Shown in pieces: positions 33,597 to 39,540 of a DNA stretch of 45,856 bases; positions within the stretch are counted from its first letter, which is position 1; the number at the start of each line of letters is the position of its first letter. The notes beneath the pieces were generated by a model. That model saw only the letters and a list, made by a program, of their open reading frames with translations. It was not told where the DNA came from and searched no databases. Position numbers and translations under genes: made by a program. The stretch spans positions 1 through 45,856 of the forward strand of contig PKTY01000317.1 in the NCBI GenBank assembly GCA_002869725.1, read 5' to 3'. This stretch comes from Desulfuromonas sp. Its GTDB lineage: Bacteria; Desulfobacterota; Desulfuromonadia; Desulfuromonadales; BM103.

Positions 33597-35147
33597 ATGG
33601 ACAACGCTCTGCAACAACTGCTCGCTCCGCAAGCCTACCCTGAAGAGCCCGGACCGGTCGAGTTCAAGGAGACCCATATTTCGAGGATCTATCTGACCAG
33701 AAACCATGTCTACAAGGTCAAGAAAAACCTCAACCTCGGCTTCCTCGATTTTTCCAGTCTGGAAAACCGGCGCTACTTCTGCCAGGAAGAGCTACGCCTC
33801 AACCGTCGCTTTACCAGTGGCCTCTACTGCGATGTGGTTGAACTGCGCTCTGCAGGCGGACGCCTCAATTTTTGCGGGGAGGGGGAGCTGATCGACTACG
33901 CCGTACGGATGCGCCGGCTCCCGGAAGAGAGAATGCTCAACCGGATGATTGAGCGCGAGGCGACTGAGCTCCACGACGAGATGCTGAGACTCGCCCACCA
34001 CCTCGACTGGATGTTTTGCAGGGCCGAAGTTCGCCGTGATCCGAAGCTGCAGAATGCCGTCATCGTTGCCACCAACAGCCGTGACAACTTCAGTCAGACC
34101 CGTTCTTTCCCGGAGTCGCTGCTCTGCCCATCGGCACACCGGGTCATGGCGGCAATTTGTGAACAGGATCTGGCCAGACTCCAGGAGACTTTCAGGCAGA
34201 GGGAGGCCGACGGTATGGTTCGCGACGGCCACGGCGACCTGCATACCGGCAACGTCTGCATGACCGATCCGATCCAGGTCTACGACTGTATCGAATTCAA
34301 CGACCAGTTCAGAATTGCTGATGTCGCCGCCGACCTCGCCTTTCTGTTGATGGACCTCGACTTTCTCGGTCGCCGCGGCCTCTCCGATCAACTGCTGGCC
34401 GACTATCTCGCCATCTCCGAGGACCGAAATCTCGACCTGGTCCTCCCCTTCTACAAACGTTACCGGGCTTGGGTCCGGGGCAAGGTCAATGGCATTCTGG
34501 CCACCGAAACCGATGTCGACAAGAAATTGCGCCGCCAGTCAGGGGAACTGGCCCGTGGTTATTTCAACCTGGCCATGGGCTACGCCCTGAAACCGACTCT
34601 AATGCTGACCTGTGGTCTGATGGGGAGCGGCAAGTCAACGCTGGCAAAACGGCTTGCGGCATCGACCGGAGCAACCCTGCTCCGGTCCGATGTGGTGCGC
34701 AAGGAGTTAGCGGGAGTGACCAGCAGTCAGCCCGTTCTCTCCGCTTACCAGAGTGGCATCTACAGCCTGGAGATGACCGAACAGACCTACCGGGAACTTG
34801 CCGTACGCACTGAAGCCATCCTGACCGCCGGCAAACCGGTGGTCGTCGACGCCGCCTTTGGCGACAGCGTGTTACGCCGGCAATTCACAGAACTCGGAGC
34901 AGGCCTCGGACAACAAGCTTGGCTGCTGCATGTCCACTGTCCCGACCACATTACCCTGCAGCGTCTCGATCAGCGCGAGAACGACGTCTCGGACGGACGG
35001 CCCGAACTTTTTCACGCCCAGAAGAAGGGATTCTCCCCCCCTGCCTCCGCTGAAAACGTGATCAGCATCGACAGCCTCCGAGAGGTTGATTATAATGTGC
35101 AACAGATTTTGAAAACTGTCCTGGTCACACAGGAGGGAATCCGTTGA
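33597..35147 (+). CDS. bifunctional aminoglycoside-phosphotransferase-like + P-loop (AAA/zeta-like) kinase protein
   Basis: N-terminal APH-like: DGHGDLHTGNVCMTDPIQVYDCIEFNDQFRIADVAADLAFLLMDLD; C-terminal Walker A LMLTCGLMGSGKSTLAKRLA. Confidence 0.88.
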   Translation: MDNALQQLLAPQAYPEEPGPVEFKETHISRIYLTRNHVYKVKKNLNLGFLDFSSLENRRYFCQEELRLNRRFTSGLYCDVVELRSAGGRLNFCGEGELIDYAVRMRRLPEERMLNRMIEREATELHDEMLRLAHHLDWMFCRAEVRRDPKLQNAVIVATNSRDNFSQTRSFPESLLCPSAHRVMAAICEQDLARLQETFRQREADGMVRDGHGDLHTGNVCMTDPIQVYDCIEFNDQFRIADVAADLAFLLMDLDFLGRRGLSDQLLADYLAISEDRNLDLVLPFYKRYRAWVRGKVNGILATETDVDKKLRRQSGELARGYFNLAMGYALKPTLMLTCGLMGSGKSTLAKRLAASTGATLLRSDVVRKELAGVTSSQPVLSAYQSGIYSLEMTEQTYRELAVRTEAILTAGKPVVVDAAFGDSVLRRQFTELGAGLGQQAWLLHVHCPDHITLQRLDQRENDVSDGRPELFHAQKKGFSPPASAENVISIDSLREVDYNVQQILKTVLVTQEGIR

Positions 35148-35413
35148 GAAATCATCGTCCACTGCCGCTGCGCGACGCCTGGGTCATCTGGTTTTTCCTG
35201 GGCGTGGTCATGCTCAACTACCCGTTCCTGCATATCTTCAACAAAGAGATCCTGCTGTTCGGCATCCCCTTGTCCCTGCTCTACTTCTTTGTCGGCTGGC
35301 CAGTTTCGATCATCGTCATCTATCTGTTTTCGATCTATCTCGGCAAAGACAAAGAGCGCCGTTCTCCCCCTTCTGACAGTCGCCACAACAGTTCTCCTCG
35401 GGTTGAGCCATGA
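35144..35413 (+). CDS. small (89 aa) two-TM membrane protein, putative accessory subunit of the downstream symporter-like protein
   Basis: TTG start overlapping the upstream stop (TTGA), stop overlapping the downstream ATG (ATGA at 35410); two hydrophobic segments. Confidence 0.8.
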   Translation: MRNHRPLPLRDAWVIWFFLGVVMLNYPFLHIFNKEILLFGIPLSLLYFFVGWPVSIIVIYLFSIYLGKDKERRSPPSDSRHNSSPRVEP

Positions 35414-38400
35414 TTCCAGTCGGAATTGTCGCCACGGTTTCCCTGCTCTATTTTGGGCTATTGTTCGCGGTCGCCTACTACGCCGACCGCCGCCGCCAGC
35501 AGGGCAAAAGCCTGGTCAACAACCCGACTGTCTACACCCTGTCCCTTGCCATCTACTGCACATCCTGGACCTTCTACGGCAGTGTCGGCCGGGCTGCCAC
35601 CAGCGGCATCGACTTTTTGACCATCTACCTCGGACCGACCCTTATCGCCTTCTCCTGGTGGTTTCTGCTGCGCAAGATTGTGCGCGTCAGCAAGGAACAG
35701 AACCTGGTCAGCATCGCCGACTTCATCTCCAGCCGTTACGGCCAATCGACTCTGCTCGGCGCGGTGGTGACCAGCTTTGCAGTCCTCGGCATCATGCCCT
35801 ATATCGCCCTGCAGCTGAAAGCCGTAGCCCGTACCTTCGACCTGCTCTCCTACCCGATCAACGCTGTCGGCGAATCCTTTCACAAACTGCCGAACATTGA
35901 CCTCAACTTCGATACCGCTTTTGTGGTCGCAGTGATCCTCTCCCTGTTCGGCATTCTGTTCGGCGCCCGCCACCTCGATGCCTCTGAGCGTCATGAAGGA
36001 TTGATCGCAGCGATTGCCACGGAATCACTGGTCAAGATCCTGGCCTTTGGGGCGGTCGGACTGTTTGTGACTTTCGGGCTCTTCGACGGCTTTGCCGACA
36101 TCTTCCAAACCTTTTTGTCGACCTACCCGGAGCGTAGCGGGCTGCTGTTGCTTGGCACCGACCAGAACTCTTACACGCACTGGTTCTCACTGACCTTCAT
36201 CTCGATGATGGCGGTCATGTTCCTGCCCCGACAGTTTCATGTCATGGTTATCGAAAATTGTGAGGAGGAACATATCCGCAAGGCAATGTGGGGCTTCCCG
36301 GCCTACCTTTTCGTCATCAACCTGTTCGTGATTCCGATTGCCCTGGGGGGGCTTTTGCTCAACAAGGGTGGCACCCTGCTTGCCGACTATTTCGTGATCA
36401 CTCTCCCCCTGCAGTACGGCCAACCCTGGCTGGCCCTGTTGGTCTTCATCGGCGGATTCTCGGCGGCGGCCGGAATGGTGATGATCTCCTCGGTGGCCCT
36501 GTCGACCATGATCCTCAATCACCTGATCATGCCGGTCATTCTCAAGCTGCGAACCGGCAATCGTGATCTCTCAATCCTGCTGATCAATTTCAAGCGGCTC
36601 GGCATCTTCGGAGTAATTTTTCTCGGTTACCTCTATTACCGACTGCTCGGCGAAACTGCGGCTCTGGGCAACATTGGTCTGATCTCGTTCGTCGCCGCAA
36701 CCCAGTTTGCTCCGGCGGTCATCGGCGGGCTCTACTGGCAACGGGCAACACGACGAGTGGTGACTGTCGGTCTGATCTTTGGATTTGTGATTTGGTTCTA
36801 CACTCTGCTCATCCCCTCATTCGCTCAGTCGGGCTGGCTCTCCGCAGCGTTGATCGAAGAGGGTCTGTTCGGGCTGGCGCTGCTGAAACCGACAGCCCTG
36901 TTCGGACTGACCGGCTTCGACCTCTGGACCCATTCCCTGTTCTGGACCATGTTCTTCAACATCGGCTTTTTCGTGACCCTCTCACTCCTTGGCGAACCAA
37001 CCGTGGATGAGCTGCGGCAGAGCGGCAAGTTTGTCGATGTCTATGATCGCCACGAATCTCCTCTTCGTCGCACGCGCATCACCAAGGCCCCCTCGATCAT
37101 CGAATTTGTCGAATTGATGGCTAAATTCATCGGTGAAAAACAGGCACACGCCGCAATTGCTGAATATATCGGCAATCGCGAAATCAATGCTCAGGGAAGT
37201 CTCTCGGAACAGGAACTTCTCAAACTCAAACACTTCACCGAGCTGACACTGGCAGGTTCGGTCGGTTCGGCACCGGCGCGCATCATCATCGAAAATTATC
37301 TGTCAGCCCGGGGGAGTCATATGGAGGATGTGTTCGACATTTTCGGTTCTGTGAGCATCAGCCGCAGTGCCAGCCGCGAACAGCTCAGCGTCCTTTACGA
37401 AACGGCACGCACCATCGCCAGCGGCAACGACCTGAAGTCGATCCTCGACGAGATTTTGGAAATCTTCACCGACCAGTTCAAGTTCGACCTGTGTGTTATC
37501 CGGATTCTCGATGAGGAGAGGCAGACCTTGACTGTGCGCAGCCAGCGCGGCATGTCCTCCAAGCATTTCGGCGAATCGGAGCGCAACCTGAGCATGGACA
37601 CCTTTATCGGTGAAACCTTCCTGACCAACCAGGTTTCGGTGGTCAACGACACCGACTTCATGAGCAAGCCCAAAACAGCCGCCATCATCCATCGCGAGGG
37701 AATTCGCTCTTTAGCCCATGCTCCGATTACCATCGAAGGCGAGTCGATCGGTGTGCTTTCGGCCTTCTCACGCTCGGCCAAGGGCATTTTCACTGACGAG
37801 TTCGTCGAGCTGTTCACCAGCTTGGCAGGTTTGGTGGGCGTTGCCTGGCGCAATGACGAGCAGACCGGCCGCCTTATCGCCGCCCGTGAGCAGCAGCGCG
37901 AACTGGCGATCGCCAAGAATATCCAGCTCGGTCTGCTCCCGACCAGCATCCCGCAGATTCCTGCCATCTCCCTGGCTGGCTTATGCCTGCCGGCCAAAGA
38001 CGTTGGCGGTGACTATTACGACTTCCTCTGTCACGACGACAACCGCCTCGACCTGGTGATCGCCGATGTTTCAGGCCACAACATCGGAGCGGCCCTGATT
38101 ATGGCGGAAACCCGCTCGATGATCCGCTCGCGCAGCAATCAGCTCGTCAGCCCCGTTGAGTTGATGACGGATTTGAATCAAACCCTTTACGATGACCTGA
38201 CTCGCGCCGAACTGTTCATTACCATGTTCTATATGCAGTTCGACCCGAAAACCAGGCTGGCCAGGTTCTCCAGTGCCGGCCATTCACCGCCGGTCTATTA
38301 CCAAAGGAGCAACCGGCAATGTCTACTGCTCGATGCTGAGGGGCTGATTATCGGTGTCAAGCGCGACTTCCCCTACGAGCAGCAGGAGATCATTCTGGCC

Positions 38401-38625
38401 GAAGGCGATCTGCTGCTGCTCTATACCGATGGCATTATCGAGGCGAGCAACGATTTGGGAGAAATGTTTGGTGAGCAGAGACTGATGGGACTGGTCCAGG
38501 AACATCATCTCCTTCCCGCCCAGGAGATCATCGAGAGCATTATTCAGCAGGTTCGCCTGTTCAGCGGCAGGCACCACTTCAATGACGATGTCTCGCTGGT
38601 TGTCATGAAAATCGTCGGCGACTGA
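35410..38625 (+). CDS. sodium:solute symporter (SLC5/PutP-like) - STAC-like - GAF - SpoIIE/PP2C serine phosphatase fusion protein, 1071 aa
   Basis: ~12-TM SSS region (YTLSLAIYCTSWTFYGSVGRAATSGIDFLTIYLGPTL); linker IAEYIGNREINAQGSLSEQELLKLKHFTELTLAGSVGSAPARIII resembling the STAC domain; GAF; PP2C motifs KDVGGDYYDF, VIADVSGHNIGAALIMA, SAGHSPPVYY, YTDGIIEASN, HFNDDVSLVVMK. Confidence 0.93.
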   Translation: MIPVGIVATVSLLYFGLLFAVAYYADRRRQQGKSLVNNPTVYTLSLAIYCTSWTFYGSVGRAATSGIDFLTIYLGPTLIAFSWWFLLRKIVRVSKEQNLVSIADFISSRYGQSTLLGAVVTSFAVLGIMPYIALQLKAVARTFDLLSYPINAVGESFHKLPNIDLNFDTAFVVAVILSLFGILFGARHLDASERHEGLIAAIATESLVKILAFGAVGLFVTFGLFDGFADIFQTFLSTYPERSGLLLLGTDQNSYTHWFSLTFISMMAVMFLPRQFHVMVIENCEEEHIRKAMWGFPAYLFVINLFVIPIALGGLLLNKGGTLLADYFVITLPLQYGQPWLALLVFIGGFSAAAGMVMISSVALSTMILNHLIMPVILKLRTGNRDLSILLINFKRLGIFGVIFLGYLYYRLLGETAALGNIGLISFVAATQFAPAVIGGLYWQRATRRVVTVGLIFGFVIWFYTLLIPSFAQSGWLSAALIEEGLFGLALLKPTALFGLTGFDLWTHSLFWTMFFNIGFFVTLSLLGEPTVDELRQSGKFVDVYDRHESPLRRTRITKAPSIIEFVELMAKFIGEKQAHAAIAEYIGNREINAQGSLSEQELLKLKHFTELTLAGSVGSAPARIIIENYLSARGSHMEDVFDIFGSVSISRSASREQLSVLYETARTIASGNDLKSILDEILEIFTDQFKFDLCVIRILDEERQTLTVRSQRGMSSKHFGESERNLSMDTFIGETFLTNQVSVVNDTDFMSKPKTAAIIHREGIRSLAHAPITIEGESIGVLSAFSRSAKGIFTDEFVELFTSLAGLVGVAWRNDEQTGRLIAAREQQRELAIAKNIQLGLLPTSIPQIPAISLAGLCLPAKDVGGDYYDFLCHDDNRLDLVIADVSGHNIGAALIMAETRSMIRSRSNQLVSPVELMTDLNQTLYDDLTRAELFITMFYMQFDPKTRLARFSSAGHSPPVYYQRSNRQCLLLDAEGLIIGVKRDFPYEQQEIILAEGDLLLLYTDGIIEASNDLGEMFGEQRLMGLVQEHHLLPAQEIIESIIQQVRLFSGRHHFNDDVSLVVMKIVGD

Positions 38626-38732: not shown

Positions 38733-39074
38733 ATGAATTTACAGACCGAGGACAAGGGCGTTGCGGTGCTGCTGACGCTCAATGAGGAGCGGCTCGATGC
38801 CCACAACAGTGGCGACCTCAAGACCCAGATGTTGAAACTGTTTGAGCAGGGGAAAAACAACCTGGTCGTTGATATGCAGGCCGTCCGCTTCGTCGATTCG
38901 TCAGGGCTTGGAGCTCTGGTCTCGGGTTTCAAGAATGCCAGTTCGCGTAACGGCAGTCTGAAATTGACCGGCCTGCAGTTGCAGGTCAAGTCGATGTTTG
39001 AACTGACCAGACTGCACCGGGTGTTCGAAATCTACAACGACGCCGAGGAGGCTCTCGGTAGTTTCCAGCAGTAA
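38733..39074 (+). CDS. STAS-domain anti-sigma factor antagonist (SpoIIAA/RsbV-like; start trimmed to MNLQTEDKG)
   Basis: VDMQAVRFVDSSGLGALVSGFKNA contains the conserved phosphorylatable DSSGLG motif; SD AAGGAG upstream of ATG 38733. Confidence 0.92.
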   Translation: MNLQTEDKGVAVLLTLNEERLDAHNSGDLKTQMLKLFEQGKNNLVVDMQAVRFVDSSGLGALVSGFKNASSRNGSLKLTGLQLQVKSMFELTRLHRVFEIYNDAEEALGSFQQ

Positions 39075-39114: not shown

Positions 39115-39540
39115 ATGCCGAATGACCGTCTTGCCGTTGACATAAAAGTCCCCAACCAGACGCGCTACCTCTGTCTGATTGGCCATATCGGCGAGAACAT
39201 CGCACGCACCTTGAAACATTTTGGGGGTGATCGCGAGAAACTTGCCTACGATCTCAATCTGGTCCTCACTGAGGCGATGGCCAATGCTATCCAGCATGCC
39301 AACGTCGGCGACCCGGCCAAGGAAGTGCATATTGAGATCAGTATTGTCGATCGGCAACTGCAGATTCGTGTCTACGATTTCGGCGAGGGGTTCGATATCG
39401 ACGAATACTGCCAGCCACGTCATCCCCTCGAAGAGCATGGCCGCGGCATCTACCTGATCCGCTCGATTATGGACGAGATGTGCTACAAAAAAACGGCGGA
39501 CGGCCACGTCCTTGAACTGTGCAAAAATCTCAATTCATAA
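39115..39540 (+). CDS. ATP-binding anti-sigma factor kinase (RsbW/SpoIIAB-like HATPase)
   Basis: N-box VLTEAMANAIQHANV, G1 VYDFGEGFD, G2 GRGIYLIRSIMDEM. Confidence 0.92.
   Translation: MPNDRLAVDIKVPNQTRYLCLIGHIGENIARTLKHFGGDREKLAYDLNLVLTEAMANAIQHANVGDPAKEVHIEISIVDRQLQIRVYDFGEGFDIDEYCQPRHPLEEHGRGIYLIRSIMDEMCYKKTADGHVLELCKNLNS

Follow-up and report, generated by a model that had tools for sequence, protein, structure and literature searches.

We analyzed a 45,856-nucleotide stretch of DNA from Desulfuromonas sp. (assembly GCA_002869725.1, contig PKTY01000317.1, forward strand; hereafter 'the window') and found that one of its genes joins a transporter (SLC5) and STAC front end like that of the Pseudomonas histidine kinase CbrA to a GAF domain and a SpoIIE-type PP2C phosphatase domain, with genes for a STAS protein and an RsbW-like kinase directly downstream. 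Judging from these sequences, we think it likely, with good but not full confidence, that the product is a CbrA-type transceptor whose output would be dephosphorylation of the neighboring STAS protein. A sequence-only reading of the window had described this architecture in one 1071-amino acid (aa) open reading frame (ORF), and its coordinates proved exact. The gene and its parts, with residues numbered along the protein, are as follows:

35410..38625, + strand: SLC5-STAC-GAF-PP2C transceptor phosphatase gene, 1071 aa, no stop codon inside the frame
35410..36999, + strand: SLC5 domain, residues 1-530, ~13 predicted transmembrane helices, K209 (CbrA 10ED alignment, model, fold matches)
37042..37344, + strand: STAC domain, residues ~545-645, four helices within 563-633 (CbrA 10ED alignment, model)
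37375..37866, + strand: GAF domain, residues 656-819, related to the solved Geobacter sulfurreducens GAF 2QYB (Pfam, structure)
37795..37935, + strand: long single helix, residues 796-842, between GAF and PP2C, a candidate signaling coiled coil (model)
37891..38622, + strand: SpoIIE-type PP2C domain, residues 828-1071, GGDYYD/ADVSGH/TDG/NDD intact (Pfam, motif alignment)

A CbrA-type front end

The identity of residues ~10-635 as SLC5 plus STAC is settled by their match to the SLC5-STAC structure 10ED (E=1.5e-73 over residues 10-635 in a single-sequence search; E=2.4e-102 over residues 3-634 with the family profile). This entry is titled just 'histidine kinase', and we read it as Pseudomonas putida CbrA, given that the numbering of its pocket and site residues (Y51, S53, W55, K196) is the same as in a CbrA preprint (PMC13022988). 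The STAC-like segment quoted in the sequence-only reading (609-627), on which the relationship to CbrA had been proposed, indeed lines up with CbrA 'LSGLMGPSVAQDMVETFL'; the alignment to the CbrA STAC reaches residue 635, and the AlphaFold model places the STAC helices at 563-574, 576-587, 600-618 and 620-633. The LGPx(x)A motif site between STAC helices reads LAGSVGSAPA, with the G and the A retained and the P replaced by S, likewise in the relatives shown.

K209 is the equivalent of the CbrA Na2-site lysine K196 and is present in 45 of the 46 PP2C members aligned. A lysine at the Na2 position suggests coupling to protons rather than sodium, and the SLC5 domain is therefore predicted to be, probably, proton-coupled.

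An intact PP2C phosphatase in place of a kinase

The AlphaFold model of the full protein (mean pLDDT 83) shows SLC5-type membrane helices, a four-helix STAC, a GAF fold, the 47-residue helix 796-842 and a PP2C fold. In Foldseek searches the transporter part matched SGLT, NIS and SiaT, and these folds, the model helices and 10ED together bear out the multi-helix SLC5 start; the phosphatase part matched RssB, SiaA, SpoIIE and the RsbU-RsbW protein Rv1364c. Searches with Pfam models gave a divided answer, since SpoIIE (PF07228, E=7e-55, residues 876-1068) and GAF_2 (PF13185, E=5e-15, residues 674-812) matched as expected, whereas the SSF model PF00474 gave no match to the 1071-aa protein itself, passing its cut-off in the orthologue L040 (23.1 vs. 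22.8 bits) and in the histidine-kinase relative L047. HisKA and HATPase domains were not found in the 1071-aa protein, which has PP2C there instead.

The metal-binding motifs of the predicted phosphatase are intact, as had been claimed: none of the residues D868, D871, D886, D1007, D1059 and D1060 varies among 28 orthologues, and alignment pairs the motifs with their counterparts in SpoIIE, RssB, Rv1364c and SiaA. The GAF domain is 42% identical to 2QYB in structural alignment (rmsd 2.1), and 2QYB matches the family profile at E=2e-54. Titled as the GAF region of a putative membrane protein of G. sulfurreducens and deposited without a function, 2QYB is probably the GAF domain of a family member, solved in 2007; we found no publication on the full 2QYB-containing protein in the literature. 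In the GAF/PAS-PP2C phosphatases RsbU, RsbP and RsbZ, switching is achieved by helical linkers that dimerize the PP2C domains (PMC12143880), a scheme that the predicted helix 796-842 fits.

A probable single swap of output

The protein is present in 38 of the 40 nearest genomes, the exceptions (G016, 71% complete, and G024) having GAF/PP2C-level matches only. Across the class of Geobacter and Desulfuromonas, a cut-off of E<=1e-150 is passed in 173 of 195 genomes; as five of them score no higher than the kinase-type paralogues, we counted 168/195 as carriers of the SLC5-STAC-GAF-PP2C architecture (named relatives: Geothermobacter and Geobacteraceae), and this census of PP2C fusions is to be read as 'at least', with Actinobacteria outside the sample. 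Full-length conservation among relatives runs at 41-77% identity, well above chance, and a chance ORF or a frameshift fusion is ruled out, since sister orders as well as most of the remaining families of the order keep the full length.

In the phylum sample, among the matches listed, full-length matches reaching the PP2C domain occur only in the class of Geobacter; outside that class matches end near residue 820 or earlier, and the proteins examined carry HisKA and HATPase domains. In a tree of the SLC5 domain, built by a quick method, a single branch with modest support (SH-aLRT 84) sets off all 47 PP2C members, which lie beside SLC5-STAC-GAF-kinases of the same phylum, and three metagenome-assembled PP2C genomes labeled only Deltaproteobacteria fall inside the PP2C group. 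The simplest reading is a single replacement of the kinase by a phosphatase output; repeated independent fusions are rejected for the sampled set, given the one change on the tree.

Plasmid pAZKH of Azoarcus sp. KH32C carries an SLC5-STAC front end fused to GGDEF and EAL domains (L173:4001-7189), so that with the kinase and PP2C relatives there are at least three kinds of output for the transporter-STAC unit. At this plasmid locus the annotated start, 4250, leaves out the beginning of the transporter, and immediately upstream there is an ORF of 64 aa.

The cassette around the transceptor gene

The transceptor gene belongs to a cassette whose other elements are:

38733..39074, + strand: STAS anti-sigma-factor-antagonist-like protein, probable substrate (TIGR00377, 75.8 bits vs. 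cut-off 53.45)
39115..39540, + strand: RsbW/SpoIIAB-like GHKL kinase, 141 aa (N-box TEAMANAIQH and G-boxes conserved)
35144..35413, + strand: small two-helix membrane protein gene, 89 aa, TTG start after AGGAGG, its stop overlapping the transceptor start as ATGA
35068..35096, + strand: candidate cassette promoter, sigma-70-like TCGACA-17-TATAAT, 11/12, ~48 bp before the small gene

The partner-switch neighborhood that the sequence-only reading had noticed holds across the class, with STAS and RsbW directly downstream in almost every orthologue, sister orders included. The DSSG of the STAS protein (S56/S57) is at least 97% conserved, and the RsbW-like protein matches HATPase_c_2 (E=7e-22), with RsbW and SpoIIAB as its best models, both below their equivalog cut-offs.

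The small gene at 35144-35413 had been overlooked. Its family is kept upstream of both PP2C and histidine-kinase relatives, in most with a 4-nt overlap, and AlphaFold gives helices 9-32 and 43-73 (pLDDT 70). The 89-aa protein has no sequence match to any solved chain, profile search included, and homology to CbrX was not detected this way; in position and topology it is the counterpart of CbrX, which binds the SLC5 domain of CbrA. The small gene and the transceptor gene are probably translationally coupled. The promoter at 35068..35096 is suggestive only, as ~2.4 chance matches are expected in the region at a looser threshold.

Lgt and RluA genes come after the RsbW-like gene, on the opposite strand. 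At 33597-35147 the window encodes a kinase-like protein of two domains (APH-like and AAA_33), whose place next to the cassette is conserved in many relatives.

A proposed mechanism and its weighing

We propose that a solute would bind to or pass through the SLC5 domain, probably with proton coupling, and that the STAC, docked beneath the transporter as in CbrA, would relay the resulting change of conformation to GAF and to helix 796-842. This helix may then set the pairing and activity of the PP2C domain, which when active would take the phosphate off the neighboring STAS protein; unphosphorylated STAS would capture the RsbW-like kinase and so release the client of that kinase.

Natural variants bear on the substrate. 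Some Geobacterales have bare PP2C genes of ~270-300 aa (L166:5799-6719, L167:3391-4197, L133:1782-2642), with all metal motifs and without SLC5, STAC or GAF, which lie between the APH/AAA kinase-like gene and STAS-RsbW. The close PP2C domains of Methylococcales have PAS repeats, and in the vicinity of one of them is a STAS-RsbW pair with 54-59% identity to that of the window. Phosphatase and RsbW are found together in 165 of the 195 class genomes, while 13 lack both, 14 have RsbW alone and 3 the phosphatase alone, counts that ignore shared ancestry. Taken together, the variants and the co-occurrence make the neighboring STAS protein a likely substrate and support a modular reading in which the sensor part is exchangeable.

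Several observations pull the other way, the disregard of ancestry in those counts among them. In one family of the order (L161-L165, L172; 10 genomes sampled) the small gene and the phosphatase are absent at the syntenic site, yet STAS and RsbW are still there and their motifs are intact, so STAS-RsbW can persist without the phosphatase. Extra full-length SLC5-STAC-GAF-PP2C paralogues lack STAS/RsbW neighbors (L169, L171), and other substrates are possible because of these orphans. The pTM of 0.60 makes the placement of the domains relative to each other uncertain in the model. Lastly, the histidine pocket of CbrA is incompletely kept in the alignment: Y49, W53, F69, Y73 and F427 are retained, yet A56 has become T54 and F248 has become S265, leaving histidine unsupported as the substrate. 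T and S at these positions are the norm in nearly all SLC5/STAC kinases, CbrA being the odd one out, and the characterized ones serve the use of acetate (CrbS) and pyruvate (RpuS) (PMC9100948). With a pocket like that of the wider family, a small carboxylate is at most a fair guess at the ligand, by analogy with CrbS and RpuS.

The transporter might instead only transport or anchor, the true signal being a cytoplasmic ligand of the GAF domain. According to passages of PMC9100948 and PMC7918813, the SLC5 domain of CbrA is dispensable for signal perception and its kinase for uptake, and some relatives have a bare PP2C gene where the full gene would be; however, SLC5 and STAC are kept throughout the class, with the pocket tryptophan invariant and the Na2 lysine nearly so, none of which a mere anchor needs. 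We regard a non-sensing SLC5 domain as rather unlikely.

As to the client of the kinase, the sequence-only reading had proposed a sigma-factor/anti-sigma switch instead of a response regulator. The replacement of the kinase output stands, the PP2C group being nested among SLC5-STAC(-GAF) kinases; a sigma factor as the end target fared less well, with no SigB/F type and with RpoS absent from the carriers G283 and G440. The sigma-70 proteins in the source assembly (88.5% complete) are RpoD, an RpoS-like factor and RpoH, and no SigB/F-type factor was seen there as an alternative client. RpoS is the leading candidate: in the manner of CrsR (Shewanella) and HsbR (Pseudomonas), the RsbW-like protein would sequester an RpoS-type sigma, which the phosphatase would free. 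An RpoS-like factor occurs in the source assembly and in 180 of the 195 class genomes, the published Geobacter sigma list comprises rpoH, rpoE, rpoN, rpoD, rpoS and fliA (PMC2700814), and the CrsR-CrsA and HsbR-HsbA partner switches bind RpoS (PMC6482189). On the other side, many genomes without the cassette retain RpoS, we found no linkage of rpoS to the cassette locus, and, RpoD apart, no RpoS-type factor was matched in the complete or near-complete carriers G283 and G440, which weakens RpoS as a universal client; we hold RpoS as the end target to be possible and no better than tentative. FliA is unlikely as a universal target, being unseen in the source assembly and in several carriers. In one genome (G447:C65:6953-7735) an RpoS-like sigma domain lies within an unusually long open frame (805 codons).

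The STAS/RsbW pair could equally govern an enzyme or other protein, in the way that SiaABC controls the diguanylate cyclase SiaD. SiaA is among the close structural matches of the PP2C domain, no sigma gene adjoins the cassette, and the cassette occurs where RpoS is absent (G283, G440), although the best models of the kinase, if below their cut-offs, are RsbW and SpoIIAB, and the locus shows no linkage to a candidate enzyme; this too we would entertain rather than favor. A bolder version of the preferred transceptor reading, in which the transporter would read a small nutrient, possibly acetate or pyruvate like CrbS/RpuS, and through PP2C and partner switching would bypass any two-component step and directly set the general stress sigma RpoS of Geobacter-type bacteria, strikes us as improbable.

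Relation to known systems and significance

The window protein is transceptor-like, yet it is not an SLC5/STAC histidine kinase. It aligns end to end with CbrA over SLC5 and STAC, with the Na2 lysine common to both, and the small two-helix gene lies upstream and overlaps as cbrX does; the outputs differ, CbrA having a PAS-histidine kinase with CbrB as partner, and the window protein GAF and a SpoIIE-type PP2C with STAS and RsbW. CrbS (acetate) and RpuS (pyruvate), likened here by description, have the same SLC5-STAC plan (PMC9100948), although their output is a hybrid kinase-receiver with a separate response regulator. With RsbU, RsbP, RsbZ, SpoIIE and SiaA the protein has in common the PP2C fold, the metal motifs and a predicted STAS substrate with a GHKL kinase, and with all of these but SpoIIE a helical linker after the sensor domain; unlike them, it has as its sensor a whole SLC5 transporter plus STAC.

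The closest published architecture is in Actinobacteria, where section 5.1.1 of a 2021 review (PMC7918813) gives, from a SMART domain listing, proteins with SSS, HATPase, GAF and PP2C_SIG. By that description a transporter domain is joined to GAF and a sigma-type PP2C as here, with an extra HATPase domain; STAC and operon fall outside what the passage describes. In the literature we searched, mostly outside subscription papers, we came across no account of the SLC5-STAC-GAF-PP2C form or of its CbrX-like partner, operon or function. The joining of a transporter to GAF and PP2C was thus already known, and, as far as that passage goes, the form with STAC, a CbrX-like gene and this operon is new.

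Geobacter and its relatives are studied for metal respiration and bioelectrochemistry, and the cassette is nearly a core trait of their class. Since a CbrA-like transporter-STAC unit is here joined to another enzyme, the coupling of STAC to its output becomes testable apart from kinase chemistry, with the natural variants (kinase, phosphatase, GGDEF-EAL, bare phosphatase and phosphatase lost) serving as controls.

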